Below, one piece after another: positions 1,097 through 32,928 of a DNA stretch of 52,538 bases. Location: IMG/VR virus record IMGVR_UViG_3300030046_000015, positions 1-52,538 of that record. One strand, 5' to 3'. The translations under genes were made by a program, and so were the position numbers. The notes below the pieces were generated by a model. That model saw only the letters and a list, made by a program, of their open reading frames with translations, ran no database searches and was not told the origin of the DNA. Each line of letters begins with the position of its first letter. Position 1 is the stretch's first letter. Source of the stretch: a virus.

Positions 1097-3385
1097 ATGA
1101 CTGTAAAGACTAAGAAAGTGACGCAGACCGACCTGGACTTCACCGTGTTCAGTCGCGCGGTGGCCGCCCAGTTCCAGCGCATGAGCGCGCATCCGCTGTT
1201 CCGCGCATCAACCAGCAAGGACGATATGTGGGCCATATACCAGGCCGCTTGGCCGGAGGGCACCAACGAGATCTTCCGCGAGCGGCGGGAGCATGATTGC
1301 CAGAAGTGCAAGCACTTCATCCGAGCGGTCGGCGGCGTCGTGGCCGTGATCGACGGCGAGCTTGTCAGTATTTGGGACGCGGAGATGCCCGAGCCGTACG
1401 CCACGGTGGCTGCGGCCATGTCGCGCTACGTGGAATCTTGCGCCATCGACAACGTGTTCCTCACGTCGGAGCGCACGGCGGGGGTGGCGAAGAATTTTCA
1501 GCAGGTCATAACTGCCCTAGAGTTCCAAGACTCATTCGCGAAGGCTTCGGCTACACCGCTAAAGAGCGAACGCGTGATCGAGTGGAACCACTTCAGCGTC
1601 GCCATCCCGGACCGCTTCGTCGTCTCGAAGAAGGACATCGGGCCGAAACTGGCCGACGCCCGCGCCACGCACGACGTTCTGCTGCGCGGACTGCAGGAGC
1701 TCACGCTGGACTCGGTCGACACGGTGCTCGAGTTGATTGCGCAGAACTCGCTCTACCGTGGGGAGGAGTATAAGCATTCGTTGCAGACGTTCCGGGCGTT
1801 GAAGGTGAAGTTCGACGCCGTGAGTCCTGCCATGCAGCTTTCTCTGAATAACCGAGCGGCAGCGGATGAAGTGCTGAACGAACGACGCGACCAGTTCGCG
1901 TGGCTCCACGCCCAGGCCGCGCACCCGACAGCGAGTCGGATTCGCAACACGGCCATTGGCACGCTGCTGATCGACCTGTCGGCCGGGATCGAGCTCGAGG
2001 ACGCCGTCAAGAAGTTCGAGACGTCCGTCATGGCCCCATCCAATTACAAGCGGCCCACGGCGCTGGTTTCCAAGGCCATGATCGAGAAGGCGCGCGTGAA
2101 AATCGACGAGCTGGGGCTGGCGTCGGCTTTGGAGCGTCGCTACGCCGTCATAGACGACATCACGGTGAACAATATCCTGTTCGCCGACCGATCGGCCAAG
2201 GTGCTGAGGGGCCAGCGCGGCGGTGGTAAGACGGCCGAGAGCGCGTTCGCGGAACTGGCGGAGAAGATCCCCGAGGACGTCAAGAAGCTGGACCGCGTGG
2301 AGGAGATCGGCATCGAGAAGTTCCTCAAGGACGTGCTTCCGAAGGCGACCTCGCTGGAGGTTCTGTTTGAGAACAAGCACGCCGGGAACCTCGTCAGCCT
2401 TATCGCGCCAGTCGACCCCACGGCTAAGAACCTGTTCAAGTGGCCCAACAAGTTCTCCTGGTCGTACGCGGGGGACGTGGCGGACTCCATCAAGGAGCGC
2501 GTCAAGCGCGCCGGAGGAAGCGTAGTCGGCGACCTTTGCTGCCGGCTGGCCTGGGACTACACGGACGACCTGGATTTCCACATGATTGAGCCAGCTGGCG
2601 CGGGGCGTGGAAGAGGCGGTTTCGGCACCGGTAGCACGCATATCTTCTACGGCAACGTACGCAGGCCGTCTGCCAGCGGAGGCATTCTGGACCTGGACGC
2701 CAACGGTTGCGACGGCCTGAAGGCTGAACCAGCGGAGAACATCTTCTACGCCGACAAGGCCAACATGGCGGAGGGCGTGTACGAGCTGACGGTAAACAAC
2801 TACTCGCGACGCTCGACCGGAAGTGGATTCGAGGCGCAGGTGGAGTTTGGCGGCGTCACGCACAACTTCGTCTACGAGAAGGCGCTGCGCACCGGAGAGA
2901 CGGTAAGCGTAGCCAAGGTGAAGTACAGCCATGCGGCTGGGTTCGAGATTATCGAGTCGTTGCCGTCGACGCAAACCTCCAAGGAGGTTTGGGGTATGCA
3001 GACGCAGACCTTTCGCAAGGCGAACGTGGTCATGCTGTCGCCGAATTGGTGGGATGGCTACGCGCCTGGCACCGCGACGTTCGAATCACTCGGAGACGTG
3101 GAAGCTGACGAGCGGGTGGCGAAGGCGTTCGGTATCGGCAACAAGCACTACTTCTTCATGCTGGAGGGCTGCGCCAACGAGGGCAAGGCTCGCGGCTACT
3201 ACAATGAATTCTTGCGCGCGGACCTGGAACCGCACCGCAAGGTCATGGAGATGGTGGGGGCCAAGATGCGCACGGACGAGGCCGCGCACCAGTTGTCTGG
3301 CTTAGGCTTCTCGTCTACACAGAGGGCTGAGCTAACCGTGCGGGTCGGCGGAACGTTCAGCCGTGTCGTAAAGGTGGTGTTCTAG
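1097..3385 (+). CDS. large early protein with YfaP/DUF2135-like C-terminal domain
   Basis: This 762-aa protein starts at an ATG preceded by AGGAGA. The N-terminal 450 residues are mostly helical and not recognised; they include HDCQKCKHF, a possible metal site. From about residue 475 a beta-rich region reads LAWDYTDDLDFHMIEP, then HIFYGN, GGILDLDANGCDG, and GVYELTVNNYSRR. This matches the YfaP/DUF2135 pattern of an Asp-rich, possibly Ca-binding beta-sandwich. The last 100 residues (MLSPNWWDG...KHYFFMLEGC) are found with this domain in other large phage proteins as far as I recall. It has its own TATAAT box and is the largest gene before the polymerase. The role is unknown; a scaffold or host-interaction protein is possible. 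Confidence 0.6.
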   Translation: MTVKTKKVTQTDLDFTVFSRAVAAQFQRMSAHPLFRASTSKDDMWAIYQAAWPEGTNEIFRERREHDCQKCKHFIRAVGGVVAVIDGELVSIWDAEMPEPYATVAAAMSRYVESCAIDNVFLTSERTAGVAKNFQQVITALEFQDSFAKASATPLKSERVIEWNHFSVAIPDRFVVSKKDIGPKLADARATHDVLLRGLQELTLDSVDTVLELIAQNSLYRGEEYKHSLQTFRALKVKFDAVSPAMQLSLNNRAAADEVLNERRDQFAWLHAQAAHPTASRIRNTAIGTLLIDLSAGIELEDAVKKFETSVMAPSNYKRPTALVSKAMIEKARVKIDELGLASALERRYAVIDDITVNNILFADRSAKVLRGQRGGGKTAESAFAELAEKIPEDVKKLDRVEEIGIEKFLKDVLPKATSLEVLFENKHAGNLVSLIAPVDPTAKNLFKWPNKFSWSYAGDVADSIKERVKRAGGSVVGDLCCRLAWDYTDDLDFHMIEPAGAGRGRGGFGTGSTHIFYGNVRRPSASGGILDLDANGCDGLKAEPAENIFYADKANMAEGVYELTVNNYSRRSTGSGFEAQVEFGGVTHNFVYEKALRTGETVSVAKVKYSHAAGFEIIESLPSTQTSKEVWGMQTQTFRKANVVMLSPNWWDGYAPGTATFESLGDVEADERVAKAFGIGNKHYFFMLEGCANEGKARGYYNEFLRADLEPHRKVMEMVGAKMRTDEAAHQLSGLGFSSTQRAELTVRVGGTFSRVVKVVF

Positions 3386-12377: not shown

Positions 12378-12596
12378 ATGAGAGAACATTTCTGCGAAGA
12401 CTGTCGAGACGAACGAATTCAGTTGAATCATCTGGTCGGTCAGCGAATCACAAAGGCGCAGGTCAACTGCGATGGACCCGGTACCTACACGTTTGAATTT
12501 GAAGATGGTACCGTACTTAGCATTACGTCGTCAGGTAGCGATCTTACTACTACCGATGCAACGTTCACGATACCAAAACACACCAAGAAAATGTAG
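12378..12596 (+). CDS. hypothetical protein, 72 aa, CxxC
   Basis: The ATG at 12378 has TAAGGA eight bases upstream. The N-terminus has FCEDCRDERI, then a beta-rich part (YTFEFEDGTVLSITSSGSDL). It resembles small phage proteins with a Cys pair and a beta-sandwich. Function is unknown. Confidence 0.55.
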   Translation: MREHFCEDCRDERIQLNHLVGQRITKAQVNCDGPGTYTFEFEDGTVLSITSSGSDLTTTDATFTIPKHTKKM

Positions 12597-12609
12597 TGCA
12601 AGGAGCATT

Positions 12610-13521
12610 ATGGATTTCGCAACAATCGCAATGTACGTGGGACTGGGCGTTCTAGCCATCATAGTCCTGAGCATATTCTTCGGGTCGTTCTACACGGTGC
12701 CTACGCAGGAAGCGGCTGTAGTAGCGCGCTTCGGCAAGTTCAGTCACATCGCACGGCCAGGGCTCAACTTCAAGCGGCCATTCGTGGACTCTGTCGAGTT
12801 AGTTAGGCTGGCCACGTACCAGCTAGACGACACCATTGAGACGAAGACCAAGGACAACGTGTTCGTCACGCTGCCGGTGTCCTGCCAGTGGCAGGTGGGT
12901 AGTTCGGATCAAGCCATCCAGGACTATCATTACAAGCTAACCAACAACGAGCAGATCAGCTCCTACCTGTCCAACATCCTGTTGGGACACATTCCGGACA
13001 TGGACCTGGACACACTCTTCACGTCGCAGCAGCAGGTATCGGACAAGGCGTCGGCAGAACTTGAACTACAGATGTCCAAGTTCGGTGTCGAAATCACCAA
13101 AGTAATGATCACTGACATCCAACCGGACGCCGGAGTGGTCAAGGCCATGAACAGTATCAACGAGCAGACCCGGCTGGCCGTGGCTAATAAGGCACAAGGT
13201 GACGCGGAGTATATACTCAAGGTGCGGCAGGCTGAGGCTGATGCCGAGGTCAAGCGCCAAGAAGGTTTGGGCGTGGCTAACGAGCGTAAGGCCATCGCTG
13301 ACGGGTGGGCTGACTCGATCGACAAGATAAAGGGCAGTACCGACCTGTCGGATAACGACGCTACGTTCCTGCTGCTGTTCACCAACTGGACCGACATGAT
13401 GCAGAAGGTCGGCGGCTCTGACAACACCACCATGGTCTTTATGCCCTCTGGACCGGAGGGCTTGCAGAACTTCCAGGCGACGATGGCCAACGCGCAGTTG
13501 CATATGCTGGCGGCGAAGTGA
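12610..13521 (+). CDS. SPFH/band-7 (stomatin/prohibitin-like) membrane protein
   Basis: The ATG at 12610 follows AAGGAGCATT. The 303-aa protein has one N-terminal membrane segment (about 6-28, VGLGVLAIIVLSIFFGSF), then the SPFH start VPTQEAAVVARFGKF, a PGLNFKRPF segment and the helical KAQGDAEYILKVRQAEADAE region typical of band-7 proteins. Family members form ring-shaped membrane microdomains and regulate proteases. Phage copies are uncommon; a role in protecting membrane-bound phage factors or blocking FtsH-type proteolysis is inference. Confidence 0.8.
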   Translation: MDFATIAMYVGLGVLAIIVLSIFFGSFYTVPTQEAAVVARFGKFSHIARPGLNFKRPFVDSVELVRLATYQLDDTIETKTKDNVFVTLPVSCQWQVGSSDQAIQDYHYKLTNNEQISSYLSNILLGHIPDMDLDTLFTSQQQVSDKASAELELQMSKFGVEITKVMITDIQPDAGVVKAMNSINEQTRLAVANKAQGDAEYILKVRQAEADAEVKRQEGLGVANERKAIADGWADSIDKIKGSTDLSDNDATFLLLFTNWTDMMQKVGGSDNTTMVFMPSGPEGLQNFQATMANAQLHMLAAK

Positions 13522-13856: not shown

Positions 13857-14675
13857 ATGCCAGTAGTAAAGAAGACAGCAGCCAAAGGTAAGAAGACAAC
13901 GTCCACGGCGATAATTCCTTGGACGGAAAAATTTGCGAAGTACGCCAAAGAAACAAAGGAACAGACCAAGAACATCGGAGTCGGCGGCGTCAGTATTAAG
14001 TTCGGCCGTGGACGCATCTCTATCGGCGACGTCGAAGTCAAGGGCGGCAAGCTGGAGTGCGTCATTGTCGGCAGCTGCGCGCTCAATCGCTGGAACGAGC
14101 AGCCGTTTGATGCGTCCAATCCGCTGCCGCCGGATTGCTACGCGTTCTCTGTCATCTCGGACGACCCAGAGATGGCTCCTCACCCGTCGGCACCTGACAA
14201 GCAAGCTGTGAAGTGCGCCGATTGTGAAAAGAACCAGTTCGGTACGGCGCGCGTTGGCAAGGGCAAGGCATGCGGCAATACTATTCGTCTCGGCCTGCTG
14301 ACCGGCAATGACGCCACCGAGGACGCTGACAGCGTCGCCGCTGCGGAGATGGCCAATGCCGGTGTCAGCCCTACCAACCTGAACCATTACAAGAAGTACA
14401 CCGACCTGTTGGAAGAGGAGTATGGTCGTCCGCCGTGGGCCGTGGTGACGGAGATTGCCAGTTACGATGATCCGAAGACACAGATTCGTCTGGAGTTCAA
14501 GATGGTGTCTCTGATTGACGACGACGACGTTCTCCAGGCTCTTGAGAAGCGTGTGCTCAAGGTGCAGGAGCAACTTCAGAAGCCGTTCTCCGTGGCCGAT
14601 AAGACCGCGAAGAAGGCTCCGGCTGCGTCGAAGTCCAATTCCAAGTTCGCCGGCAAGAAGACTACACGGCGGTAG
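13857..14675 (+). CDS. phage SSB-like conserved protein
   Basis: ATG follows ACAAGGAGAACTGA. The 272-aa protein has a basic N-terminus, then FGRGRISIGDVEVKGGKLEC and a conserved middle: LPPDCYAFSVI, APDKQ, CADCEKNQFG and GKGKACGNTIRL. This order with its Cys pair and later Cys is a pattern I recognise from phage proteins next to the replicative polymerase in T7/N4-like genomes; they are often suggested to bind single-stranded DNA. The C-terminus is rich in Lys and Ala. The position just upstream of dcd and the polymerase supports a replication role. The exact function is not shown. Confidence 0.6.
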   Translation: MPVVKKTAAKGKKTTSTAIIPWTEKFAKYAKETKEQTKNIGVGGVSIKFGRGRISIGDVEVKGGKLECVIVGSCALNRWNEQPFDASNPLPPDCYAFSVISDDPEMAPHPSAPDKQAVKCADCEKNQFGTARVGKGKACGNTIRLGLLTGNDATEDADSVAAAEMANAGVSPTNLNHYKKYTDLLEEEYGRPPWAVVTEIASYDDPKTQIRLEFKMVSLIDDDDVLQALEKRVLKVQEQLQKPFSVADKTAKKAPAASKSNSKFAGKKTTRR

Positions 14676-14683
14676 AATTCTAA

Positions 14684-14725
14684 GTCGTACTTGGTCGGTA
14701 GCCCTCACTGCTGGCCAAGTACGGC
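14684..14725 (+). promoter_or_regulatory. 18-bp leader hairpin overlapping an alternative SD hairpin
   Basis: Bases 14684-14701 pair with 14708-14725 without a gap, including four G-T/U-type wobbles and a six-base loop (CCCTCA). Bases 14718-14722 (AGTAC) can instead pair with 14736-14740 (GTACT), placing the AAGGA ribosome site at 14731-14735 in the loop. The two structures share 14718-14722 and so exclude each other. There is no U tract, so a simple terminator is unlikely. It precedes the membrane peptide and dcd. Confidence 0.55.
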
Positions 14726-14740
14726 GAAGAAAGGAGTACT

Positions 14741-14845
14741 ATGAAACTGATCTTACTGATCCCGCGCATCTTCCTCATCATTTGTTTGATTCCTTTTGCG
14801 TTGGTTTTTGGCCCTGCACTATTTACGAAGCGGAGATTGTTTTGA
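14741..14845 (+). CDS. 34-aa single-span membrane micro-protein
   Basis: ATG directly follows an AAGGAGTACT ribosome site. The peptide reads MKLILLIPRIFLIICLIP then FALVFGPALF and TKRRLF, so one long hydrophobic segment and a basic tail. Its TGA overlaps the TTG start of the dCTP deaminase gene (TTGA). It may exist partly to couple translation into dcd. Confidence 0.55.
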   Translation: MKLILLIPRIFLIICLIPFALVFGPALFTKRRLF

Positions 14846-15273
14846 TTCTATCGCGGCAAGATCTTATGAAGTACGTAGAGCGGGGTGCGCTACGGTTCGA
14901 GCCAGCATTGGCTGACGATCAGTTTCAGCAAAACGGCATTGACATGATTGTGAGTCAGGTGGAGAGCGACTTGTTGGCCGCAGGTGGATTCACGTTAGGT
15001 CGTACGCGCGAGATTATAACCATGCCTGACGACCTTATGGCGTTCGTGCAAATACGGTCCACTTGGGCGCGTATGGGCTTCATCATGCCACCGACTGTGA
15101 TAGACGCTGGCTTCCAGGGCAGTATCACCCTGGAGATAGCCAAGTTCGGCGCGCCGGGTTACGTGCCTGTTGGACAGCGATTCGCCCACGTCATCTTCGC
15201 GAAGCTTACCAGCGCCACCGAGCCTTATCGCGGCAAGTACCAGGGCCAAGTGGCCATTACGGGGGCGCTGTAG
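14842..15273 (+). CDS. dcd: dCTP deaminase (Dcd/dUTPase superfamily)
   Basis: The start is read as TTG at 14842 because it gives the typical N-terminus MILSRQDLMKYVERG, has GGAG six bases upstream and overlaps the previous stop. The 143-aa protein has the family core IRSTWARMGF (the usual GRSSLAR region), then VIDAGFQGSITLEI with the position of the catalytic Glu in LEI, and YRGKYQGQ at the end. It is shorter than the usual 170-190 aa. Dcd converts dCTP to dUTP, feeding the dUMP pool. This fits a phage with a dUMP-hydroxymethylase-like enzyme. Confidence 0.8.
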   Translation: MILSRQDLMKYVERGALRFEPALADDQFQQNGIDMIVSQVESDLLAAGGFTLGRTREIITMPDDLMAFVQIRSTWARMGFIMPPTVIDAGFQGSITLEIAKFGAPGYVPVGQRFAHVIFAKLTSATEPYRGKYQGQVAITGAL

Positions 15274-17253
15274 ATGCCACGTGCGCCGCAGGTGATTCTC
15301 GCAGATTTTGAAACGAAGGGTATTCAGTCGCGGCCAAAGTACCCACCGAAGCCGGGTTCGCTCGCTCTTAAGTGGCCCGATCAGTCAGATTACAAACTCA
15401 TGGCATGGGGTCATGGGGATGGAACGCGTGCGTTCGACAACAATTGCACAGAGAAGGAAGCGCGCGGCGAGCTCAAGAAGGCACAGGAAAGCAAGTATCC
15501 AGTGCTTTGGCAGAACGAGAAATTCGATCTGGACGTCGCCGAAATACATTGGGAACTACCAATCCCGGATTGGCGGAAGCGTCACGATACTATGTATCTT
15601 CTCTTCCTCGAGAACCCTCATGCTCCGTCTCTAGCGTTGAAGGAATCGGCCCAGCGCATACTAGGGATTGCGCCTGAGGAGCAGGACAAGCTGAAGGAGT
15701 GGATCCTAGCCAACATCGAGGCGGCGCGTAAGAAGCCCAGCACATGGGGTGCGTATATCTGCGAAGCGCCTTATCGAATTGTCAAGCCCTACCACAAAGG
15801 CGATCTCACGCGCATGGGTCGGTTGTTCAATAAGATCTACCCGTATATCGTCGAGTCCGGAATGCTGGAAGCGTATCAACGTGAATTGAAGCTCATGCCA
15901 ATACTGCTGGAGAACGAGCGGGTGGGGATGCGCGTGGACATGAATGGCCTAGAGCGTGACTTGCCGGCGATGATAGCTGGCGTAGAGAAGACCGATGTCT
16001 GGCTGCGCAAGAAGCTGGGTATTGAGAACATCGACAGTGATCGGCAGCTTGGCGAGGCGCTTTACAATAAAGGAATCGTAAGCGACTTTAAGAAGACAGC
16101 CAAGGGCCATCTGTCGGTGAGTAAGAAGACACTTACGTTGAATAAGTTCAAAGACCCGAAGGTGTATCAAGCCCTGCAGTATCGCGGTCAGATGAGTACG
16201 TCCATCTCGATGTTTATCAAGCCTTGGTTGGAACTTGGTACAGCCGGCAAGGGTACCATTCACCCTAACTGGTCGCAGGTGCGCAGTCCGAAGGGTAACA
16301 ACGATACAGGAGGAGCGCGCAGCGGTCGCATCATTTGCTCAAAGCCTAACTTCTTAAATATTCCGAAGAAATGGAAGCGCGCAGCTTCTGCCGGTTACGT
16401 CCATCCAGCATTCTTGAAGGTTCCAGAATTGCCGTACGTACGTAGTTACTGCTTACCGGATAAGGGTCAGCGGTGGGGCAAAAGGGATTTCGATCAACAA
16501 GAATTGAGATTGTTCGGCCACTTTGAAGAAGGACCCGTTATGGCAGGTTTCTTATCTGCCCAAATAGATTTGCCATGCTCTAAGTGCGGCGCACCTGTAG
16601 GTAAACAATGCGTTGGTGGCAAATTTCACGCAGAACGCAAATACGACATCCATGAACTGGTGCGTGCAGAAGTAGAACGGCGTTTGATTGAAGCGTGTTT
16701 ACGCGAAGGATTCGACCGTGACACTGCCAAGAGTTGCGTGTTCGGTCGTCTGTATGGCCAGGGTATAACCGGCCTGATGCAGCTTCTACAGCTACTAGAT
16801 GAAGAGAAGCCTATTGCGCAGATCATCCAGGCTTCTATCAACGCGGCTGTGCCATCGATCAAGGAACTGGACAATCGTTTGAAGGCGCTCTCGGATGAAG
16901 GCTTGCCGATTCGCACGTTTGGGTCACGTCTGTACTATTGTGAAGAGCCGAAGTACAGTCCTCTGTATGGCAGAGACATGACATTTTCATATAAACTTCT
17001 CAACTACCTCATGCAAGGTAGCGGAGCTGATGTAACGAAAGAAACATTGATACGTTATAACGAAGCCAAGAAGAATAGCAGATTCGTCGTCACTGTGTAT
17101 GACGAAGTTAATTTCAGTGCACCTGCTAAAGCAATGAAAGAAGAACAGAAAATAATGCAAGATTGTATGCGTAGTATCGCCACCGACGTTCCCATGTTGT
17201 CGGAAGGCGAATCTGGTGTTAATTGGGGGACTTTGACAAAATGGCAGGATTAA
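15274..17253 (+). CDS. family A DNA polymerase with 3'-5' exonuclease domain
   Basis: The 659-aa protein starts at the ATG directly after dcd. The exonuclease domain shows LADFETKG (residues 9-16), NEKFDLDV (81-88) and HDTMYL (104-109). Polymerase motif A is RDFDQQELRLFGHFE (404-418), motif B DRDTAKSCVFGRLYGQG (481-497), and motif C VVTVYDEVNF (605-614), with Tyr in place of the usual His. Between motifs A and B an extra segment LPCSKCGAPVGKQCVGGKFH (C435, C438, C446, H452) looks like a zinc knuckle. It is the replicative polymerase of the phage. Confidence 0.9.
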   Translation: MPRAPQVILADFETKGIQSRPKYPPKPGSLALKWPDQSDYKLMAWGHGDGTRAFDNNCTEKEARGELKKAQESKYPVLWQNEKFDLDVAEIHWELPIPDWRKRHDTMYLLFLENPHAPSLALKESAQRILGIAPEEQDKLKEWILANIEAARKKPSTWGAYICEAPYRIVKPYHKGDLTRMGRLFNKIYPYIVESGMLEAYQRELKLMPILLENERVGMRVDMNGLERDLPAMIAGVEKTDVWLRKKLGIENIDSDRQLGEALYNKGIVSDFKKTAKGHLSVSKKTLTLNKFKDPKVYQALQYRGQMSTSISMFIKPWLELGTAGKGTIHPNWSQVRSPKGNNDTGGARSGRIICSKPNFLNIPKKWKRAASAGYVHPAFLKVPELPYVRSYCLPDKGQRWGKRDFDQQELRLFGHFEEGPVMAGFLSAQIDLPCSKCGAPVGKQCVGGKFHAERKYDIHELVRAEVERRLIEACLREGFDRDTAKSCVFGRLYGQGITGLMQLLQLLDEEKPIAQIIQASINAAVPSIKELDNRLKALSDEGLPIRTFGSRLYYCEEPKYSPLYGRDMTFSYKLLNYLMQGSGADVTKETLIRYNEAKKNSRFVVTVYDEVNFSAPAKAMKEEQKIMQDCMRSIATDVPMLSEGESGVNWGTLTKWQD

Positions 17254-27474: not shown

Positions 27475-27507
27475 ACCACTACAGATAGCCTGAACACGAA
27501 GAGTATG

Positions 27508-27539
27508 AGACGCCCAGAACATCGGGCGTCTTTGTATTT
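27508..27539 (+). terminator. rho-independent terminator
   Basis: AGACGCCC (27508-27515) pairs with GGGCGTCT (27524-27531) around AGAACATC, then TTTGTATTT follows. A downstream AGACGCC (27553-27559) could pair alternatively with 27525-27531. It ends the upstream operon before the modification cluster. Confidence 0.75.
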
Positions 27540-27584
27540 CCCCGGGTGTCTTAGACGCCTTTGCCACGTAAGAGGAGAACGATC

Positions 27585-28484
27585 CTGAAAAACCTAACAC
27601 TCATCATCCCCACGCACGGTCGTGTTAACAAGCAGATAACGCTCCAGGCGCTGCCGACTGCGCTCCAGGCCGAGGTCATCCTCGTGGCTTCGTTGCCTGA
27701 CGAAGCCAAGGCGCTGAAGAAGCTGTACCCGGCTAACCAAGTGCTTACAGCCAAGGGCACTACATCCATCGCTACGAAGCGTCACTGGATTATGAAGAAC
27801 GTAGCCGGCAAGTTTCTATTTATGATGGACGACGACCTGGCGTTCTTCGAGCGCTGCCCGGCTAAGTGGCGCGTGTGGGAGGAGCATCGCAAGGCGTACG
27901 CCGTAGCTCCGGACGCACCGGCTGGAACCTCGCTGATGATGCGTCGCTATCCTAAGGACAAGGTCCTCTTGAAGCTATTCCAGGAGATGGATTCCTACGC
28001 TGGTAAAGAGCACGACCTCGGTATGATCGGCATCGCGCATCGGCGTCACTCTGACAAGAAGAAAGCGGCGTGGGAGAAGAACGCAAGGATGATGTATGCT
28101 TTCGGTGTCAACCGAGAGCTCTATCTCAAAGAGAAGATTCGCTTCGACGCCATAGGTCTGCGCGAGGACTTCCACGTGGTGTTGTCCATGTTGCGTAAAG
28201 GCCATGAGTGCCACAACTACGTCGAGCTACTCAACAACGAGTACGGCACATTCGGCGCGGCGGGAGGGTGCAGCGGCGAGCGCAGTATGGAGTACAGCGA
28301 CGCCCAGTGCTTCGAGTTGGCCAAGCTACACCCCGGCTTCGTGAAGGTGGTGGACCGCGCGTACACCACGACGGCTGTGCGTAAGGAGGTCGTGGTAGCC
28401 TGGAAGAAGGCTTACCTCTCCTCTCTGGCTCAGCCCAAGGTTCCAAGCGTACGGAAGGCAGCAAAGAAAGCGGTGACGGCATGA
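27585..28484 (+). CDS. GT-A glycosyltransferase, TET-associated (TAGT)-like
   Basis: The frame is open from TTG 27561, but AGAGGAG lies inside it. The best start is CTG at 27585, seven bases after GGAG, giving MKNLTLIIPTHGRVNKQITL. The 299-aa protein has the GT-A DxD-like motif FLFMMDDDLAFF (D82-D84), a KGTTSIATKRHWIM segment before it, and IGLREDFHVVLSMLRKGHEC followed by GAAGGCSGERSMEYS near the C-terminus. This order (IPTHGR, DDD, ED, GG.S..R) resembles TAGT-family enzymes that add sugars to hydroxymethylated bases in phage DNA. The donor and acceptor are not known from sequence. It heads the modification cluster. Confidence 0.7.
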   Translation: MKNLTLIIPTHGRVNKQITLQALPTALQAEVILVASLPDEAKALKKLYPANQVLTAKGTTSIATKRHWIMKNVAGKFLFMMDDDLAFFERCPAKWRVWEEHRKAYAVAPDAPAGTSLMMRRYPKDKVLLKLFQEMDSYAGKEHDLGMIGIAHRRHSDKKKAAWEKNARMMYAFGVNRELYLKEKIRFDAIGLREDFHVVLSMLRKGHECHNYVELLNNEYGTFGAAGGCSGERSMEYSDAQCFELAKLHPGFVKVVDRAYTTTAVRKEVVVAWKKAYLSSLAQPKVPSVRKAAKKAVTA

Positions 28485-28648
28485 AGTGCGAAAATTGCAA
28501 GAAGAAGTGTGCGAATCGGTTCTGTAACCTTGGCTGCTTCAACCGGTGGGTGCGGCGTGGTAATCGCAAACTGGTGGAGGACGCGCACAAGAGCGGCACG
28601 GAGGATTACCGCGTCGTCGTACGGAAGATGATGGGAGGCACGGCGTGA
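28481..28648 (+). CDS. small FCS/MYM-like zinc-finger protein, 55 aa
   Basis: ATG overlaps the previous stop (ATGA), and its TGA overlaps the next GTG (GTGA). It has MKCENCKKKCANRFCNLGCF, a C-x2-C...C...C-x3-C arrangement like MYM/FCS fingers, then a basic region. It may assist the neighbouring enzymes. Function unknown. Confidence 0.55.
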   Translation: MKCENCKKKCANRFCNLGCFNRWVRRGNRKLVEDAHKSGTEDYRVVVRKMMGGTA

Positions 28649-29382
28649 TCATTCACCACAAGATTCAGCGCAACAGCGGAGCAGCCCTAGAGCCGTGTAT
28701 CTATAAGAGTGGCCATGGTGTGCCGACGCAAGGCGCTAAGATGCGCGCCTATCCGGACGTATTTGTGCCGGTGCTAGGTATAACGACTGGCGGCTACGTC
28801 ATGCCGGTAATGGGCGAACCATCGCCGGTACTGGACCTGCCGTTGGCGCTGGCCCGGTTGGCTGCTTTATGGGACCTGCCGGTGGCGCATGTCTACGATT
28901 ATGAGGGCCGCCGTCGCCACCACGTAGTCCAAGTAGAGCCGTTCACTCGCACAGAAGGCTTTCCGCCTATTATCCGGTCGGCGCTGACGACGTGGTACGA
29001 ACGAATTGGTAGTACGCAAAGCAAAGGAGCACAGGTCGTACATGGTGATCCCACCCTGGAGAACTACGTACGCGACGGTTATTGGCTAGACCCTAGTACG
29101 CGTCCATTGCCACAAGAGGCCGAGCTTGACGGCGGCAAGCTGCTGCAGTCGTACTTCCACTACGGTCGCCCTTGCCTGGAGTCGGAACGTTACATGATAC
29201 GTAAGTTCTTGGTCGAGCAAAAATTGAACCTGGACCTCTGTATCTACTACATGCTGACGCACATCATTCGGCTGTATGGTGTGCAGCCGCAGGCGCGTGT
29301 ATGGGCCATTGACGTCGTATCGGGCCTGCGTAATTTGGCGGAAGAACTTCGCACGGAAATGAGAGTGGATGCATGCAAGTAG
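28645..29382 (+). CDS. APH/choline-kinase-fold kinase-like protein
   Basis: GTG at 28645 overlaps the previous stop. The 245-aa protein has the catalytic-loop-like motif VVHGDPTLENYV (H133, D135, N140) and the following LDP plus AELDGGKLLQS (D162, K165), in place of the usual DFG region. This is the C-lobe arrangement of APH, choline-kinase and related small-molecule kinases. The N-lobe is short. The substrate is unknown; a sugar, amino alcohol or choline-like group is plausible given the adjacent NTP-transferase. It overlaps the next gene by ten bases. Confidence 0.65.
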   Translation: MIIHHKIQRNSGAALEPCIYKSGHGVPTQGAKMRAYPDVFVPVLGITTGGYVMPVMGEPSPVLDLPLALARLAALWDLPVAHVYDYEGRRRHHVVQVEPFTRTEGFPPIIRSALTTWYERIGSTQSKGAQVVHGDPTLENYVRDGYWLDPSTRPLPQEAELDGGKLLQSYFHYGRPCLESERYMIRKFLVEQKLNLDLCIYYMLTHIIRLYGVQPQARVWAIDVVSGLRNLAEELRTEMRVDACK

Positions 29383-30092
29383 TTATTCTGGCGGCAGGAC
29401 GCGGTGAACGATTTGTCAGTAACGGGGTAATGACGCCTAAACCGCTGCTCCCAGCGCGCGGTCGCACGATGATACAGCATGCGCTGGTCCAGGCGTCTGA
29501 AATCATCAAGACGCCTGTCGTTGTGTGCTTGGTGGATTTGTACAGTGAGCTTCACAAGCAAACGCCGAAGAACATGCATCCGATCCGCGTGCCCATTCGG
29601 TTCGTGCAGAAGGGTGCGGCCATGTCTTTGTTGGCGGCGTCAGGTGTGATTCGCGATACCGATCCGGTGCTGGTCATGGACTGTGACACCATCTTCAAGA
29701 GTGGTGTGCTTGCTAAGTTCTCTGAGTTTAGTGAGGCTTGCTTCAAGTCTGGCGTGCAGTCTTCTATGCTGTGCTTCCGTCCTAAGGATGACAGCGAGCG
29801 CTACAGTTTCGTTATCATGAAGGATCACTTAGTGACGCAGGTGGTGGAGAAGCAGCGCATAAGCGGTATTGCTTCTTGCGGCGTTCATGCATTCCAGTCG
29901 TGGGAGCTTGCCAAGCGCGCCATCTACGAGATGGTGATTCTCAGTACGATGACTAACGGTGAGTACTATCTGGCACCGTGCCACAACAATTTGCAGTTGA
30001 CCACGGCCATGGTGATCGCAGCCGATGAATTCAACCACGTAGGCACACCGGCTGAACTGGAGGCGTATGAGCAAGCAGTTCCCAAGGCTTGA
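29373..30092 (+). CDS. sugar-phosphate/choline-phosphate NTP-transferase family protein
   Basis: The 239-aa protein begins MQVVILAAGRGERFVSNGVM, then TPKPLLPARGRTMIQHAL. This is the GxG..R/PKPL signature of NTP_transferase enzymes such as GlmU, RmlA and LicC. VLVMDCDTIF (D103, D105) is the metal-binding motif. Such enzymes join a phosphorylated small molecule to a nucleotide to form an NDP-activated donor. Together with the kinase upstream and the glycosyltransferase, it would supply the donor for base decoration (inference). Confidence 0.75.
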   Translation: MQVVILAAGRGERFVSNGVMTPKPLLPARGRTMIQHALVQASEIIKTPVVVCLVDLYSELHKQTPKNMHPIRVPIRFVQKGAAMSLLAASGVIRDTDPVLVMDCDTIFKSGVLAKFSEFSEACFKSGVQSSMLCFRPKDDSERYSFVIMKDHLVTQVVEKQRISGIASCGVHAFQSWELAKRAIYEMVILSTMTNGEYYLAPCHNNLQLTTAMVIAADEFNHVGTPAELEAYEQAVPKA

Positions 30093-30939
30093 AGAGTTCG
30101 TGTACTTCGTGAACGAGCGTTGGTCCATACATCAGAAGCGATTGGCTGGGAAGCCTGCTCCGTGGACGAAGGATCCTATCCTGTTGGAATACCGCTTTAC
30201 CAACGTACGTCGCGAAGACGACAGGGTCACTAAGTGTATACACGAAAACTGGTTACAGCCGCACGCGGAGGACTACGACACGGTAGTCTTCGCAATGGCG
30301 CTGGCACGGTTGGTGAACTTGCCGGCGAGCCTGGAAGCGCTCGGTTATCCATCAAAATGGAATCCGAAGCGGTTTGTGAAGCTGATGGAGGCGCGCAAGA
30401 AGGACGGCATGGCGACGTTCACAGGGGCATACATGATAAACGCCGTCGGTGCTACCAAAGGACAGTCCAAGGCGTCGTACTTGGCCGACCAGGTGCTTGG
30501 GCCGTTGTGGAACAGCCGTAAGCTGCTAGGTAACTTGGTGCGTACCGGGTGTGAGCTTAGTACGTTGCAAGAAGCGCTCATGTTACATCACGGCTTCGGA
30601 GGTGGGTTCATGAGTGCGCAGGTCGTGGCGGATATTAAGCACCTGCCTTCTATGAAGAAGGCTGAAGACTGGATGACGTTCGCAATGTCAGGGCCAGGAA
30701 GTCGTAGAGGGTTAAACTGGCTCGTGGGAAGAGAACCAACTGCGCGCTGGAACGAAGAGGAATGGCATGCTACGCTGCTGGATTTGATGAAGGTAGCTCA
30801 GCCAAAGTTGAAATGCCCAGTGTTGGATGCGCAGAATCTACAGAACTGTCTGTGTGAATTCAGCAAATACTGCAAGGTGAAGTACAACGGCGGCAGAGCG
30901 AAGCAGAAGTTCCGCGCCAGCGGCGAAGCTTATAATTAA
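30067..30939 (+). CDS. HMUDK_hel / aGPT-Pplase-family base-hypermodification protein
   Basis: The 290-aa protein has the family hallmark LLEYRFTNVRREDDRVTK (about residues 39-56) after a DPIL turn and a C-terminal LCEFSKYCKVKYNGG segment. This is the helical, DNA-glycosylase-like fold of 5-hmdU DNA kinase helical domains and of alpha-glutamyl/putrescinyl-thymine pyrophosphorylases, which act on 5-hydroxymethyluracil in phage DNA. No P-loop kinase domain is present, so it fits the pyrophosphorylase/transferase type better than the kinase type. It overlaps the previous gene by 26 bases. Confidence 0.75.
   Translation: MSKQFPRLEEFVYFVNERWSIHQKRLAGKPAPWTKDPILLEYRFTNVRREDDRVTKCIHENWLQPHAEDYDTVVFAMALARLVNLPASLEALGYPSKWNPKRFVKLMEARKKDGMATFTGAYMINAVGATKGQSKASYLADQVLGPLWNSRKLLGNLVRTGCELSTLQEALMLHHGFGGGFMSAQVVADIKHLPSMKKAEDWMTFAMSGPGSRRGLNWLVGREPTARWNEEEWHATLLDLMKVAQPKLKCPVLDAQNLQNCLCEFSKYCKVKYNGGRAKQKFRASGEAYN
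30931..30936 (+). promoter_or_regulatory. TATAAT -10 box, putative promoter
   Basis: A perfect TATAAT (context GCTTATAATTAAC) overlaps the end of the previous gene and lies 28 bases before the start of the ThyA-like gene. No -35 is visible. Confidence 0.45.
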
Positions 30940-30964
30940 CCCATAGCAGCGAAAGGAAGTGAAG

Positions 30965-32056
30965 ATGTACAGTTACAAAGCTAGAGACGTAAATGAGGCG
31001 CTTTCACTTGGACTACAGCATTTGTTACACAGTGGAATCAAAGAGGACTCCAGAGTAGGTCCAGTGCTAGTAGCGCCAGGGCCGGTGTGTATCGAGTATA
31101 CCGACCCAAGGCAGCGAGTGCTGTATTCACCAACGCGCGATGCGAACCACGTATTCCATGTGATGGAGGCGTTGTGGTTTTTCTCGGGGAGCAACGAACT
31201 GGAGTTTCCGGTTTTCTTTAATGCCTCATACTCGCAGTTTTCAGATGATGGCAAGACTATGTGGGACTCTTACGGATGGCGCTGGCGAGAATTCTTCGGC
31301 TATGACCAGCTCGATGCCATAGTGGAGGAGCTCAAGTCGAATCCGGGAAGCAGGCGCTGCGTATTGGCGATGTGGAACGCTGATATTGCGCCAAGCGCCC
31401 CGCAATGGGAGGCGAAAAGTGGCGTACAGTACAGCGATGATCTTGGCGTTGCGTGCAACGGTGGTAAAGCCGTTCCGTGCAACACGCACGCTTACTTCGC
31501 CATACGAGCCGGCAAGCTGAACATGACCGTCATGAACCGCAGCAACGACAGTATGTGGGGCGCATTCGGCGCGAACGCGGTCCACTTCAGCTTCCTGTTG
31601 GAGTACATGGCGATGCGTATCGGTGTGCCGATGGGCAGTTACTATCAGTTCACGAACAATCTGCATACGTATACCGACAAGTTCAGTATTGACAAGCTGA
31701 ACGCCATTGAATACGAGTGCGTTACGCTCGATCAGTTGGAACCTCTTGGACCCTCTATCACAGAAGGATTCGACGACGACCTGAAGCTGTTCATGCCGTG
31801 GGCGCTGAAGGTGATACGTGCCACCCCACCGCCGGCAACGTTCCCGTCAGACGTATTACCAGAAGCTACGCAGCTTGCAGCGAACGTCCCCGCCTGCAAG
31901 ACGCCATTCTTCCATGCGGTAGCCATTCCGATGTTCCTGTTCTGGGTGTTCCGAAAGTGGAAGGATGAATACAGCAGCAACACTTGCCTCGATGGCATTG
32001 ACGCGCCGGACTGGAAGCGCGCGTGCTACGAGTGGAAAGAACGGAGGCGGAAGTGA
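30965..32056 (+). CDS. thymidylate-synthase superfamily, probable dUMP hydroxymethylase
   Basis: ATG at 30965 is preferred (AAAGGAAG seven bases upstream); GTG at 30959 is in frame. The 363-aa protein has TS elements: SRRCVLAMWN (129-138), the catalytic Cys172 in AVPCNTHAYFAIRAGKL, NRSNDSMWGAFGAN (191-204) and YYQFTNNLHTY (226-236). The usual PCH is PCN, and the LGLPFN segment is replaced by WGAFGAN. Such changes are typical of the phage TS-like branch that makes 5-hydroxymethyl-dUMP instead of dTMP. The assignment is inference; a plain thymidylate synthase is less likely. Confidence 0.75.
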   Translation: MYSYKARDVNEALSLGLQHLLHSGIKEDSRVGPVLVAPGPVCIEYTDPRQRVLYSPTRDANHVFHVMEALWFFSGSNELEFPVFFNASYSQFSDDGKTMWDSYGWRWREFFGYDQLDAIVEELKSNPGSRRCVLAMWNADIAPSAPQWEAKSGVQYSDDLGVACNGGKAVPCNTHAYFAIRAGKLNMTVMNRSNDSMWGAFGANAVHFSFLLEYMAMRIGVPMGSYYQFTNNLHTYTDKFSIDKLNAIEYECVTLDQLEPLGPSITEGFDDDLKLFMPWALKVIRATPPPATFPSDVLPEATQLAANVPACKTPFFHAVAIPMFLFWVFRKWKDEYSSNTCLDGIDAPDWKRACYEWKERRRK

Positions 32057-32631
32057 AAGAACTCCTGCAATTCATTTACGAGGGCGGTAGTGTAATTCGC
32101 TACCACGCACGTCCAGGCTTACGCACAGACACCGATGCGTCACACTCGTTCGGCGTTGCTCTTTGGTGCAGTTTACTGGCCGGCAAAGATGCCGAGGGTC
32201 GTACGCAAGCCAGCGCCATGTTGCTTATGGCAGCGCTAACGCATGATCTGGCCGAGCAAGCAGCGTCAGACATCAGCGCTCCAGCCAAGCGCATGATGGG
32301 CCTGTCTGACCTAGTCCATGACTGGGAGCAGAAGACGCTGCGTAAGTACGACCTGGATTATGAGCAATGGTTGGATCCGGAGGAGTTGCTCATCCTTAAG
32401 CTGGCTGACTGCTTTGATGGTCTGCTGTATTGCTGCCGTGAGCTTGCCTTAGGTAACAAGAACGTCATGCTGATCTGGAAGCGATTCTGTTCATACATCG
32501 AAACACTCACGGTAAATACGGAAGTACCCTTGGACATCGCGCTGCGCGCCTCTAACATGTACGAAGCTATAAAGGAGATCTATCGTGAAACCCGTAGTGA
32601 AGCAGGTCCGGAATTCAACGTCTTCGAGTAG
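32053..32631 (+). CDS. HD-domain 5'-deoxynucleotidase / dNTPase (YfbR/DatZ-like)
   Basis: GTG at 32053 overlaps the previous stop and has GGAGGCGG upstream. The 192-aa protein shows HD motifs: SHSFGVAL (H31), LTHDLAEQAASDISAPAKRM (H64, D65) and KLADCFD (D119). This is the YfbR-type 5'-deoxynucleotidase layout, and is similar to DatZ-type dNTP hydrolases of base-modified phages. It may remove an unwanted canonical nucleotide (dTMP, dUMP or dATP). The true substrate cannot be told. Confidence 0.75.
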   Translation: MKELLQFIYEGGSVIRYHARPGLRTDTDASHSFGVALWCSLLAGKDAEGRTQASAMLLMAALTHDLAEQAASDISAPAKRMMGLSDLVHDWEQKTLRKYDLDYEQWLDPEELLILKLADCFDGLLYCCRELALGNKNVMLIWKRFCSYIETLTVNTEVPLDIALRASNMYEAIKEIYRETRSEAGPEFNVFE

Positions 32632-32869
32632 CAAGGCTAACGATACGCAGGTAGGAGGTAGTCACTATCAAGAGGCGTCGGCGGTGTGTCCTCACTGTCA
32701 TAAAATTATTCAGCACTGGGATCTGTATGCCAAGATGCCATACTTGGTTGGACAGGTGGCCAAGTACACATTACGCTTCCTCGGTAAGAACGGCCTGGAA
32801 GACCTGAAGAAAGCACAGCACTTCCTACAGAAGCTGATCGAAGTGTACTATCCGGATGAGAAGTCTTAA
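32585..32869 (+). CDS. DUF3310 protein, 94 aa
   Basis: GTG at 32585 follows AAAGGAGATCTATC. After a Ser-rich start, the DUF3310 pattern is clear: DTQVGGSHYQ, IQHWDLYAKM, VAKYTLRFLGKNGLEDLKKA, HFLQKLIE. A CPHCHK insertion between the two halves is an odd feature. DUF3310 is common in phages and has no known function. It is the last rightward gene. Confidence 0.85.
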   Translation: MKPVVKQVRNSTSSSSKANDTQVGGSHYQEASAVCPHCHKIIQHWDLYAKMPYLVGQVAKYTLRFLGKNGLEDLKKAQHFLQKLIEVYYPDEKS

Positions 32870-32876
32870 ACGACAA

Positions 32877-32928
32877 AAGACCCGGCTGGCTGGCACTCGA
32901 TGTTCTGAGTACCAGCCAGCCGGGTCTT
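32877..32928. terminator. strong bidirectional terminator between converging operons
   Basis: Bases 32877-32893 pair perfectly with 32912-32928 (17 bp), extended by ACTC/GAGT across one mismatch, with an eight-base loop (32899-32906). On the minus strand the stem is followed by a T-rich run (TTTTGTCGTTT); on the plus strand by a weaker one. It separates the rightward and leftward operons. Confidence 0.85.

Follow-up and report, generated by a model that had tools for sequence, protein, structure and literature searches.

The virus record IMGVR_UViG_3300030046_000015 (52,538 nucleotides, positions 1 to 52,538, here called the window) carries a compact cluster of eight genes at 27585-32869. We propose that this cluster produces a glycosylated 5-hydroxymethyluracil and places it in the DNA, with a sugar donor made by the phage, and we put the probability of this reading at roughly 0.65. 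In the proposed pathway, a thymidylate synthase (TS) homologue would convert dUMP to hmdUMP, the monophosphate of 5-hydroxymethyldeoxyuridine (hmdU). An HD enzyme and other pool enzymes would lower thymidine nucleotides, and hmdUTP would be polymerised instead of dTTP. An APH-fold kinase would turn a free sugar into a sugar-1-phosphate, from which a nucleoside triphosphate (NTP)-transferase would make a nucleoside diphosphate (NDP)-sugar that is not available from the host in large amounts. The HMUDK_hel protein (HEL) would recognise and flip hmdU, and a TAGT-family glycosyltransferase would move the sugar onto its 5-hydroxymethyl group. This proposal draws on gene content, active-site residues, predicted folds, synteny, the recurrence of the kinase and NTP-transferase cassette and the alternation of TAGT with a P-loop kinase.

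The eight genes had been named in a first-pass annotation made from the letters alone. Pfam and PHROGs searches confirmed the TAGT, NTP-transferase, HMUDK_hel, TS, HD and DUF3310 genes. The cluster and its boundaries are as follows:

27507-27532, plus strand: terminator-like hairpin ahead of the cluster (consensus scan)
27585-28484, plus strand: TAGT-family glycosyltransferase (PF20691, E 1e-14; phrog_842, 2.6e-43; D82-D83-D84 motif)
28481-28648, plus strand: 55-residue Cys-rich protein, possibly zinc-binding (Cys pattern; family matches not significant)
28645-29382, plus strand: APH/choline-kinase-fold small-molecule kinase, proposed sugar kinase (AF2 model, Foldseek, VIA Z 13.9, invariant residues)
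29373-30092, plus strand: NTP-transferase of the sugar-1-phosphate nucleotidylyltransferase type (NTP_transf_3, 7e-14; NTP_transferase, 3e-10)
30067-30939, plus strand: HMUDK_hel, predicted HhH-GPD fold, proposed hmdU-flipping partner (PF18723, 2e-41)
30959-32056, plus strand: TS homologue, proposed dUMP hydroxymethylase (Thymidylat_synt, 6e-18; phrog_5131, 3e-94)
32023-32631, plus strand: HD phosphohydrolase, YfbR-like 5'-deoxynucleotidase, proposed to control the thymidine-nucleotide pool (YfbR-like, 6e-9; homologue of M6 gp59)
32585-32869, plus strand: DUF3310 protein (PF11753, 2e-7; homologue of M6 gp61)
32879-32926, strand not assigned: 20-pair hairpin at the boundary between the cluster and convergent late genes (consensus scan)

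Six of the seven junctions between the genes overlap, by 4-47 bases, and the remaining one is a 19-base gap. The 55-residue protein had been called a zinc finger. Its gene and Cys pattern hold up, but no family match is significant (best Pfam E 0.083), and all 13 of its profile matches are copies of the window virus.

The APH kinase and NTP-transferase genes occur as a pair in seven distinct contigs, namely the window virus, L027, L100, L101, L104, L185 and L189 (L102 is identical to L101 and was counted once). TAGT, HEL, TS, HD and DUF3310 accompany the pair in all seven. The order TAGT-APH-NTP-HEL-TS-HD-DUF3310 is found in six of them, with extra genes between some, and HEL comes first in L104. 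Five of the contigs are 65-72% identical at the DNA level over their longest matches; for L104 and L185 there is almost no shared DNA. Because the pair recurs with the same companions in seven distinct contigs at no more than about 72% DNA identity, the cluster is not a product of chance. The block of TS, HD and DUF3310 also recurs in many loci of the HEL and TAGT scans. Our literature search found no report of an APH/NTP cassette together with TAGT and HEL; its coverage of key work was partial, so novelty is unproven.

L104 has further genes by its cassette. One is sulfotransferase-like (L104:10827-11492; PF13469, 9.8e-6, 26.4 bits against a cut-off of 27) and another weakly GT-B-like (L104:8862-10001), and the L104 sugar might be sulfated or extended. 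A HAD-like gene lies in the interval between kinase and NTP-transferase (L104:12268-12744; PF00702, 1.3e-4, under the cut-off). ORF051 of phage RB69, near a similar pair in that phage, appears HAD-like by eye only and gave no match in a Pfam search. A HAD-like enzyme could take a second phosphate off the sugar.

Sequence searches placed the cluster kinase nowhere: the window protein has no Pfam match at E<=1 and no useful PHROG, NCBIfam or PDB sequence match. An AlphaFold model was built from seven homologues, all from viral contigs and including the window's own (pLDDT 86.9, pTM 0.85). It resembles APH/choline-kinase/fructosamine-3-kinase structures (Foldseek best E 9.7e-4; the VIA match covers 214 residues). 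The nearest structures are fructosamine-3-kinases, aminoglycoside phosphotransferases, choline kinases including LicA, maltokinases and a glucosamine kinase. K21, HGDxTLxN (133-140, with H133-G134-D135 and N140), D149 and D162 are invariant in the seven homologues. The L104 homologue scored 23.1 bits against the Pfam APH cut-off of 23.2, and the window protein gave no match. Because the model matches and the conserved catalytic residues agree, the protein is, as modelled, a kinase of APH fold that retains its catalytic residues, with a sugar as the proposed substrate; the first-pass annotation had named the same fold. The kinase-profile scan gave eight loci, all on contigs bearing the cluster, and a pattern scan of genome contigs gave 42 pattern matches and no relatives.

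An APH kinase beside HEL might instead act on the DNA base. It would replace the P-loop 5-hmdU kinase and phosphorylate hmdU in DNA, the NTP-transferase would nucleotidylate the 5-phosphomethyl group, and TAGT/HEL would add the final group. The APH kinase gene does lie upstream of HEL, like the P-loop kinase gene in Pseudomonas phage M6, and phosphorylation of hmdU is the activation proposed for M6 and ViI in the available part of PMC6449724. We searched 43 records with the same models for the P-loop 5-hmdU kinase (PF18748) and the amino acid:DNA transferase (PF18724), and M6 was positive for both. Neither was found in any of eight records (the window, its parent contig G001 and six cassette relatives), and for the P-loop kinase this result fits replacement by the APH kinase. 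However, neither kinase was present in the fetched flanks of 48 of the 53 distinct TAGT-HEL loci, so TAGT chemistry seems independent of a kinase. In addition, relatives of the NTP-transferase are sugar-1-phosphate enzymes, small molecules are the usual substrates, where known, of the kinase's structural neighbours, and the candidate sugar-donor module of RB69 contains a similar pair. We consider activation of the base by these enzymes improbable.

The same searches bear on an M6-like amine or amino-acid hypermodification, which was rejected. The proteins of the window virus also gave no blastp match to M6 gp54 or gp51 at E 0.01. Because PF18748 and PF18724 were not found, the M6-type amino-acid route is not indicated in the sequence at hand.

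Returning to a sugar donor, the NTP-transferase scored over the Pfam cut-offs for NTP_transf_3 and NTP_transferase. Its best NCBIfam models were Arch_glmU (1.7e-18, 66.7 bits against a cut-off of 292.1), GlmU, MurU (1.9e-9) and AglF, all under their curated cut-offs, and its PDB sequence matches include sugar nucleotidyltransferases, MurU among them. We propose that it is of the sugar-1-phosphate nucleotidylyltransferase type; the model scores do not specify the sugar or the nucleotide. The structure and family check suggested in the first-pass annotation thus gave an APH fold for the kinase and Pfam families for the NTP-transferase; subfamily scores stayed below cut-offs and the kinase gained no family match.

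The first-pass annotation had read the two genes as making an activated donor of NDP-sugar or NDP-choline/ethanolamine type. The donor idea agrees with the sugar-type models ranking best and with the similar pair in RB69. Between the two types, an NDP-sugar is favoured and NDP-choline/ethanolamine is less likely. The case for an activated alcohol of choline, ethanolamine or glycerol type is that choline kinases, LicA among them, are close to the kinase model; however, fructosamine kinases, maltokinase and glucosamine kinase are equally among the closest structures. The GlmU-, MurU- and AglF-like models also speak against it, and the partner enzyme is a glycosyltransferase. An alcohol donor has a slim chance in our view.

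The TS homologue was examined for the base that is modified. It is 38% identical to M6 gp58 and belongs to the same PHROG family, phrog_5131. Among distinct family members of at least 300 residues (n=89, 23 of them beside an hmdU kinase), Cys174, Asn206, R194, S195, D197, H236 and Y238 are each present in 89/89. Asn206 lines up with the uracil-reading Asn of E. coli TS; the corresponding residue in the CMP hydroxymethylase MilA is Asp. Since Cys174 and Asn206 are invariant and Asn206 matches the E. coli residue, the substrate is likely a uracil nucleotide. We infer hydroxymethylation rather than methylation by analogy with M6, in which hmdU is the presumed precursor of the modified T (PMC6449724, available part). 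The catalytic Cys and uracil-type Asn thus support the hmU-derived base that the first-pass annotation expected.

Alternatively, the TS homologue could be a dCMP hydroxymethylase and the product a glycosylated 5-hydroxymethylcytosine. Its closest PDB match is indeed a CMP hydroxymethylase, and the T2/T6 TAGT works on glucosylated cytosine, where it adds a second sugar onto an existing one (PMC13216743, available part). RB69 ORF048, aligned as a cytosine-type comparison, is gapped at the Asn position. The uracil-type Asn in every family member, including the 23 beside an hmdU kinase, stands against a cytosine base. So do the membership of the enzyme in the M6 gp58 family and a gene backbone that is the thymidine pathway's. 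Modified cytosine is thus hardly probable here.

We also looked at relatives of the NTP-transferase in cellular genomes, using the best 80 of 81 and their fetched flanks. No match to the kinase, HEL or TS profiles was found at E 0.05 in these 80 loci, so the cellular relatives reveal no sugar; one weak TAGT match (L268, E 0.0095) falls on the NTP-transferase gene itself. That the kinase, NTP-transferase and glycosyltransferase serve the host envelope and stand beside TS incidentally has a very small probability: NTP-transferases of similar type are also present in bacteria, in archaea and in cyanophages, where they neighbour other sugar genes, but the DNA-modification genes that accompany the seven cassettes are always the same, the cellular loci show none of the three partners, and the kinase-profile scan led only to contigs bearing the cluster.

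The TAGT protein scored 55.4 bits against the PF20691 curated cut-off of 27.5. Its acidic metal-binding motif, D82-D83-D84, is invariant with two homologues from Brevibacterium phage LuckyBarnes (three sequences). The apparent start is a CTG at 27585, downstream of a strong ribosome-binding site (AAGAGGAG), with an alternative in-frame TTG at 27561; in homologues the start codon at this position is ATG, GTG or TTG. A scan with the best 80 of 87 TAGT relatives gave 61 distinct loci, and HEL was inside the fetched flanks of 40 of them at a median start-to-start distance of 1.2 kb.

HEL scored 142.7 bits against the PF18723 cut-off of 25 and is 33% identical to M6 gp55. Pfam titles PF18723 '5-hmdU DNA kinase, helical domain', and it gives amino-acid transfer to PF18724, not to this family. 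The HEL model has a pLDDT of 94.4. With VIA, the best matches were MjOgg (Z 11.0) and the phage 5-PmdU glycinyltransferase PUGT (10.6), with Ogg enzymes, Mag1 and PUGT within Z 11.0-10.2; the program cautions that a Z below about 13 may carry little meaning where folds are helical. Down to Z 5.9 there are 40 rows, all of them DNA glycosylases or fold relatives, PUGT and a queuine salvage enzyme among the latter, and unrelated proteins start at 3.5. Because the matches are mutually consistent and well above the remaining rows, HEL is probably a protein of DNA-glycosylase (HhH-GPD) fold as modelled, and such a fold suggests base flipping. Older annotation of HEL as a pyrophosphorylase was set aside, since amino-acid transfer belongs to PF18724 and HEL pairs with TAGT where the P-loop kinase was not found. 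The first-pass annotation had left transfer to either the glycosyltransferase or HMUDK_hel; the glycosyltransferase remains the candidate, and an amine-adding role for HMUDK_hel is unlikely given that PF18724 was not found and HEL looks glycosylase-like.

The partners of HEL were compared in a scan using the best 80 of its 428 relatives, with loci annotated by local profile hidden Markov models. Among the 67 distinct loci, TAGT alone was present in 14, the P-loop kinase alone in 25, neither in 28 and both in 0 (Fisher p 0.0011). The APH cassette was found in none of 26 P-loop kinase loci. On the HEL tree (108 rows, 80 labelled), by raw count, at least 14 changes between the TAGT and kinase states are needed, so the two genes seem to have swapped often. 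The closest relative of the window HEL without a cassette, L020 (52% identity, among the best 80 of 428), has the P-loop kinase and the amino acid:DNA transferase. These two genes occur together in 8 of 41 whole records (p 1.4e-5). These records were hand-picked from the HEL scan at about 28 kb or longer, with copies left out. We found no literature report of the TAGT/P-loop kinase alternation, with key work covered in part, so novelty is unproven here as well.

These results led us to a broader and more tentative reading, held at less than even odds: HEL may be a general hmdU-flipping adaptor for interchangeable effectors, either the P-loop kinase or TAGT and other glycosyltransferases. The window lineage would have added a sugar kinase and a nucleotidylyltransferase of its own, and the product would be an unrecorded thymine-position base with a non-host sugar. 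If this is true, many solitary TAGTs may be 5-hydroxymethyluracil glycosyltransferases; according to the available part of PMC13216743, 288 of 753 genomes have TAGT without an alpha- or beta-GT, and such TAGTs are noted there as potential new transferases. The cluster as we read it would supply these TAGTs with a predicted substrate and partner and would offer HMUDK_hel a role in phages where its namesake kinase was not found. With a two-gene donor cassette named, the presence of a sugar at the thymine position could be put to a direct test. Bases of this kind would be expected to resist restriction enzymes and CRISPR nucleases and to be attacked by Type IV enzymes, and the enzymes of the cluster could serve as tools for hmU tagging of DNA.

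Several observations weigh against glycosylation of hmdU through HEL and a phage-made donor. The DNA and its enzymes are known from sequence alone, and we infer every reaction, the identity of the sugar and the flipping of hmdU by HEL for TAGT. Since the T2/T6 TAGT extends an existing sugar, hmdU itself may not be the substrate of the window TAGT. The cassette occurs in 5 of the 53 distinct TAGT-HEL loci (a count without L185 and L189), and most have none. A SIS-type sugar isomerase was found in 0/8 cassette records, with RB69 positive, so the sugar must be supplied from elsewhere. For HEL, the Z range given above is joined by a weak Foldseek result (best E 0.97), and no fused TAGT-HEL or kinase-HEL open reading frame (ORF) was found among 677 annotated ORFs.

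The alternation has its own weaknesses. Its rows are related and not independent. Among HEL loci with more than 5 kb on both sides (n=36), TAGT was present in 7, the kinase in 11, neither in 18 and both in 0 (p 0.076). With curated Pfam models, the 41 whole records gave TAGT in 9, kinase in 11 and both in 0 (p 0.083), with 1 of the 9 TAGT records and 6 of the 11 kinase records falling under the family cut-off. For several records (e.g. L023, L044, L024, L025) the local models disagree with the curated ones. Because 28 of the 67 HEL loci carry neither gene, HEL has other partners or roles.

Eight neighbouring proteins from these neither-gene loci were scanned, with results that are suggestive only: GT-B matches below cut-off in L049 (6e-5) and L095 (7e-3), radical SAM/SPASM matches in L049 and L056, and nothing for four of the eight. 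In L049 and L056, and by eye in L072, the radical SAM/SPASM genes lie upstream of HEL in HEL-TS-DUF3310 clusters without TAGT or the P-loop kinase, and in L049 the gene adjoins the possible GT-B gene. These clusters perhaps represent a third chemistry. L039 and L061 have an adenylate-kinase-like P-loop protein close by (by eye). HEL is also present in L036, L048 and L081, on contigs of 332-463 kb, with TS absent from the fetched flanks.

The window corresponds to bases 17587-70124 of the 101,166-base contig G001, identical end to end, and three further identical copies of the window virus were among the contigs scanned. The ends of G001 (1-1277 and 99806-101166) form an imperfect repeat with 93-95% identity over about 1.1 kb and duplicated ORFs. 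Because its ends repeat in this way, G001 is probably near complete; a strain mixture, terminal redundancy and gene duplication are candidate explanations for the repeat. Terminator-like hairpins number 9 in the window against 4.2 expected (consensus scan only). Two genes outside the cluster relate to nucleotide supply and replication:

14515-15273, plus strand: dCTP deaminase-like protein, which could feed dUMP (TIGR02274, 100.2 bits against a cut-off of 92.8)
15274-17253, plus strand: family A DNA polymerase, distant from that of M6 (PF00476, 1.5e-37; 22% identity to M6 gp62)

An SPFH/Band 7 protein (window 12472-13521; PF01145, 3.9e-30) was unexpected amid phage replication genes. A 762-residue P-loop protein (window 1097-3385) belongs to the phage family phrog_1735 (2e-242), whose function is not known.

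Among known systems, M6 (Yuavirus, 5-NedU) shares HEL (gp55), TS (gp58), HD (gp59) and DUF3310 (gp61) with the window, in the same order. In M6 these accompany the P-loop hmdU kinase gp54 (PF18748) and the amino acid:DNA transferase gp51 (PF18724), with HEL gp55 as a separate gene, whereas the window virus has TAGT, the APH kinase and the NTP-transferase instead. M6 also has Nmad5 (gp56) and genes annotated as threonine dehydratase and DNA repair photolyase. The M6 kinase (NC_007809 gp54) and several relatives are publicly labelled 'terminase small subunit', apparently a spreading mis-annotation.

The first-pass annotation had held that the gene combination matches no known pathway. This stands for the donor cassette and fails for the combination of TS, HEL and TAGT. 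The set of TS, HEL-family, nucleotidase and TAGT-type genes is already known from HTVC023P-type pelagiphages. The available part of PMC9599517 places TS, aG/PT-PPlase1 (an older name for HEL homologues), a 5'-deoxynucleotidase and a putative beta-glucosyl-HMC-alpha-glucosyltransferase in one region near the DNA polymerase. Unlike the window account, that text mentions no donor kinase or NTP-transferase and reads the genes as M6-like thymidine hypermodification. Likewise, LuckyBarnes has TS, two TAGT-type glycosyltransferases and an adjacent HMUDK_hel, and searches for PF18748 and PF18724 found neither. It differs from the window in that its annotated neighbours name no NTP-transferase or kinase and its TS is longer and distant (27% identity). 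A literature search naming this phage found no report on its DNA chemistry.

Phages that make their own sugar donors were also compared. RB69 has an NTP-transferase (ORF053) beside an APH-like protein (ORF052), like the window. Its DNA is arabinosylated and the pair has been proposed to help make UDP-arabinose (PMC6024577, available part). Unlike the window, RB69 modifies cytosine and has a SIS isomerase nearby, and its kinase and NTP-transferase are distant from those of the cassette (25 and 14 bits to the cassette profiles). For phage Thanatos, the available part of PMC12838424 shows that TH1_063 acts in vitro as a UDP-xylose pyrophosphorylase and suggests that it supplies DNA glycosylation; TH1_060 has predicted glycosyltransferase and phosphotransferase domains. 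The base there is cytosine, and a test for xylose transfer to DNA was negative, which counts with the points against our proposal. Bacillus phage SP-15 is an older case with a uracil-derived base, a phage uridylyltransferase and glycosyltransferases (PMC5977210, available part). It differs in its ThyX-type synthase, UDP-glucose dehydrogenase, phosphomannomutase and CDP-glycerol-type transferase, and the same text mentions no TAGT/HEL cluster. Set against these phages, the window system is probably a variant of phage DNA hypermodification in which hydroxymethyluracil is glycosylated with a phage-made sugar donor, and the donor cassette is its new part.

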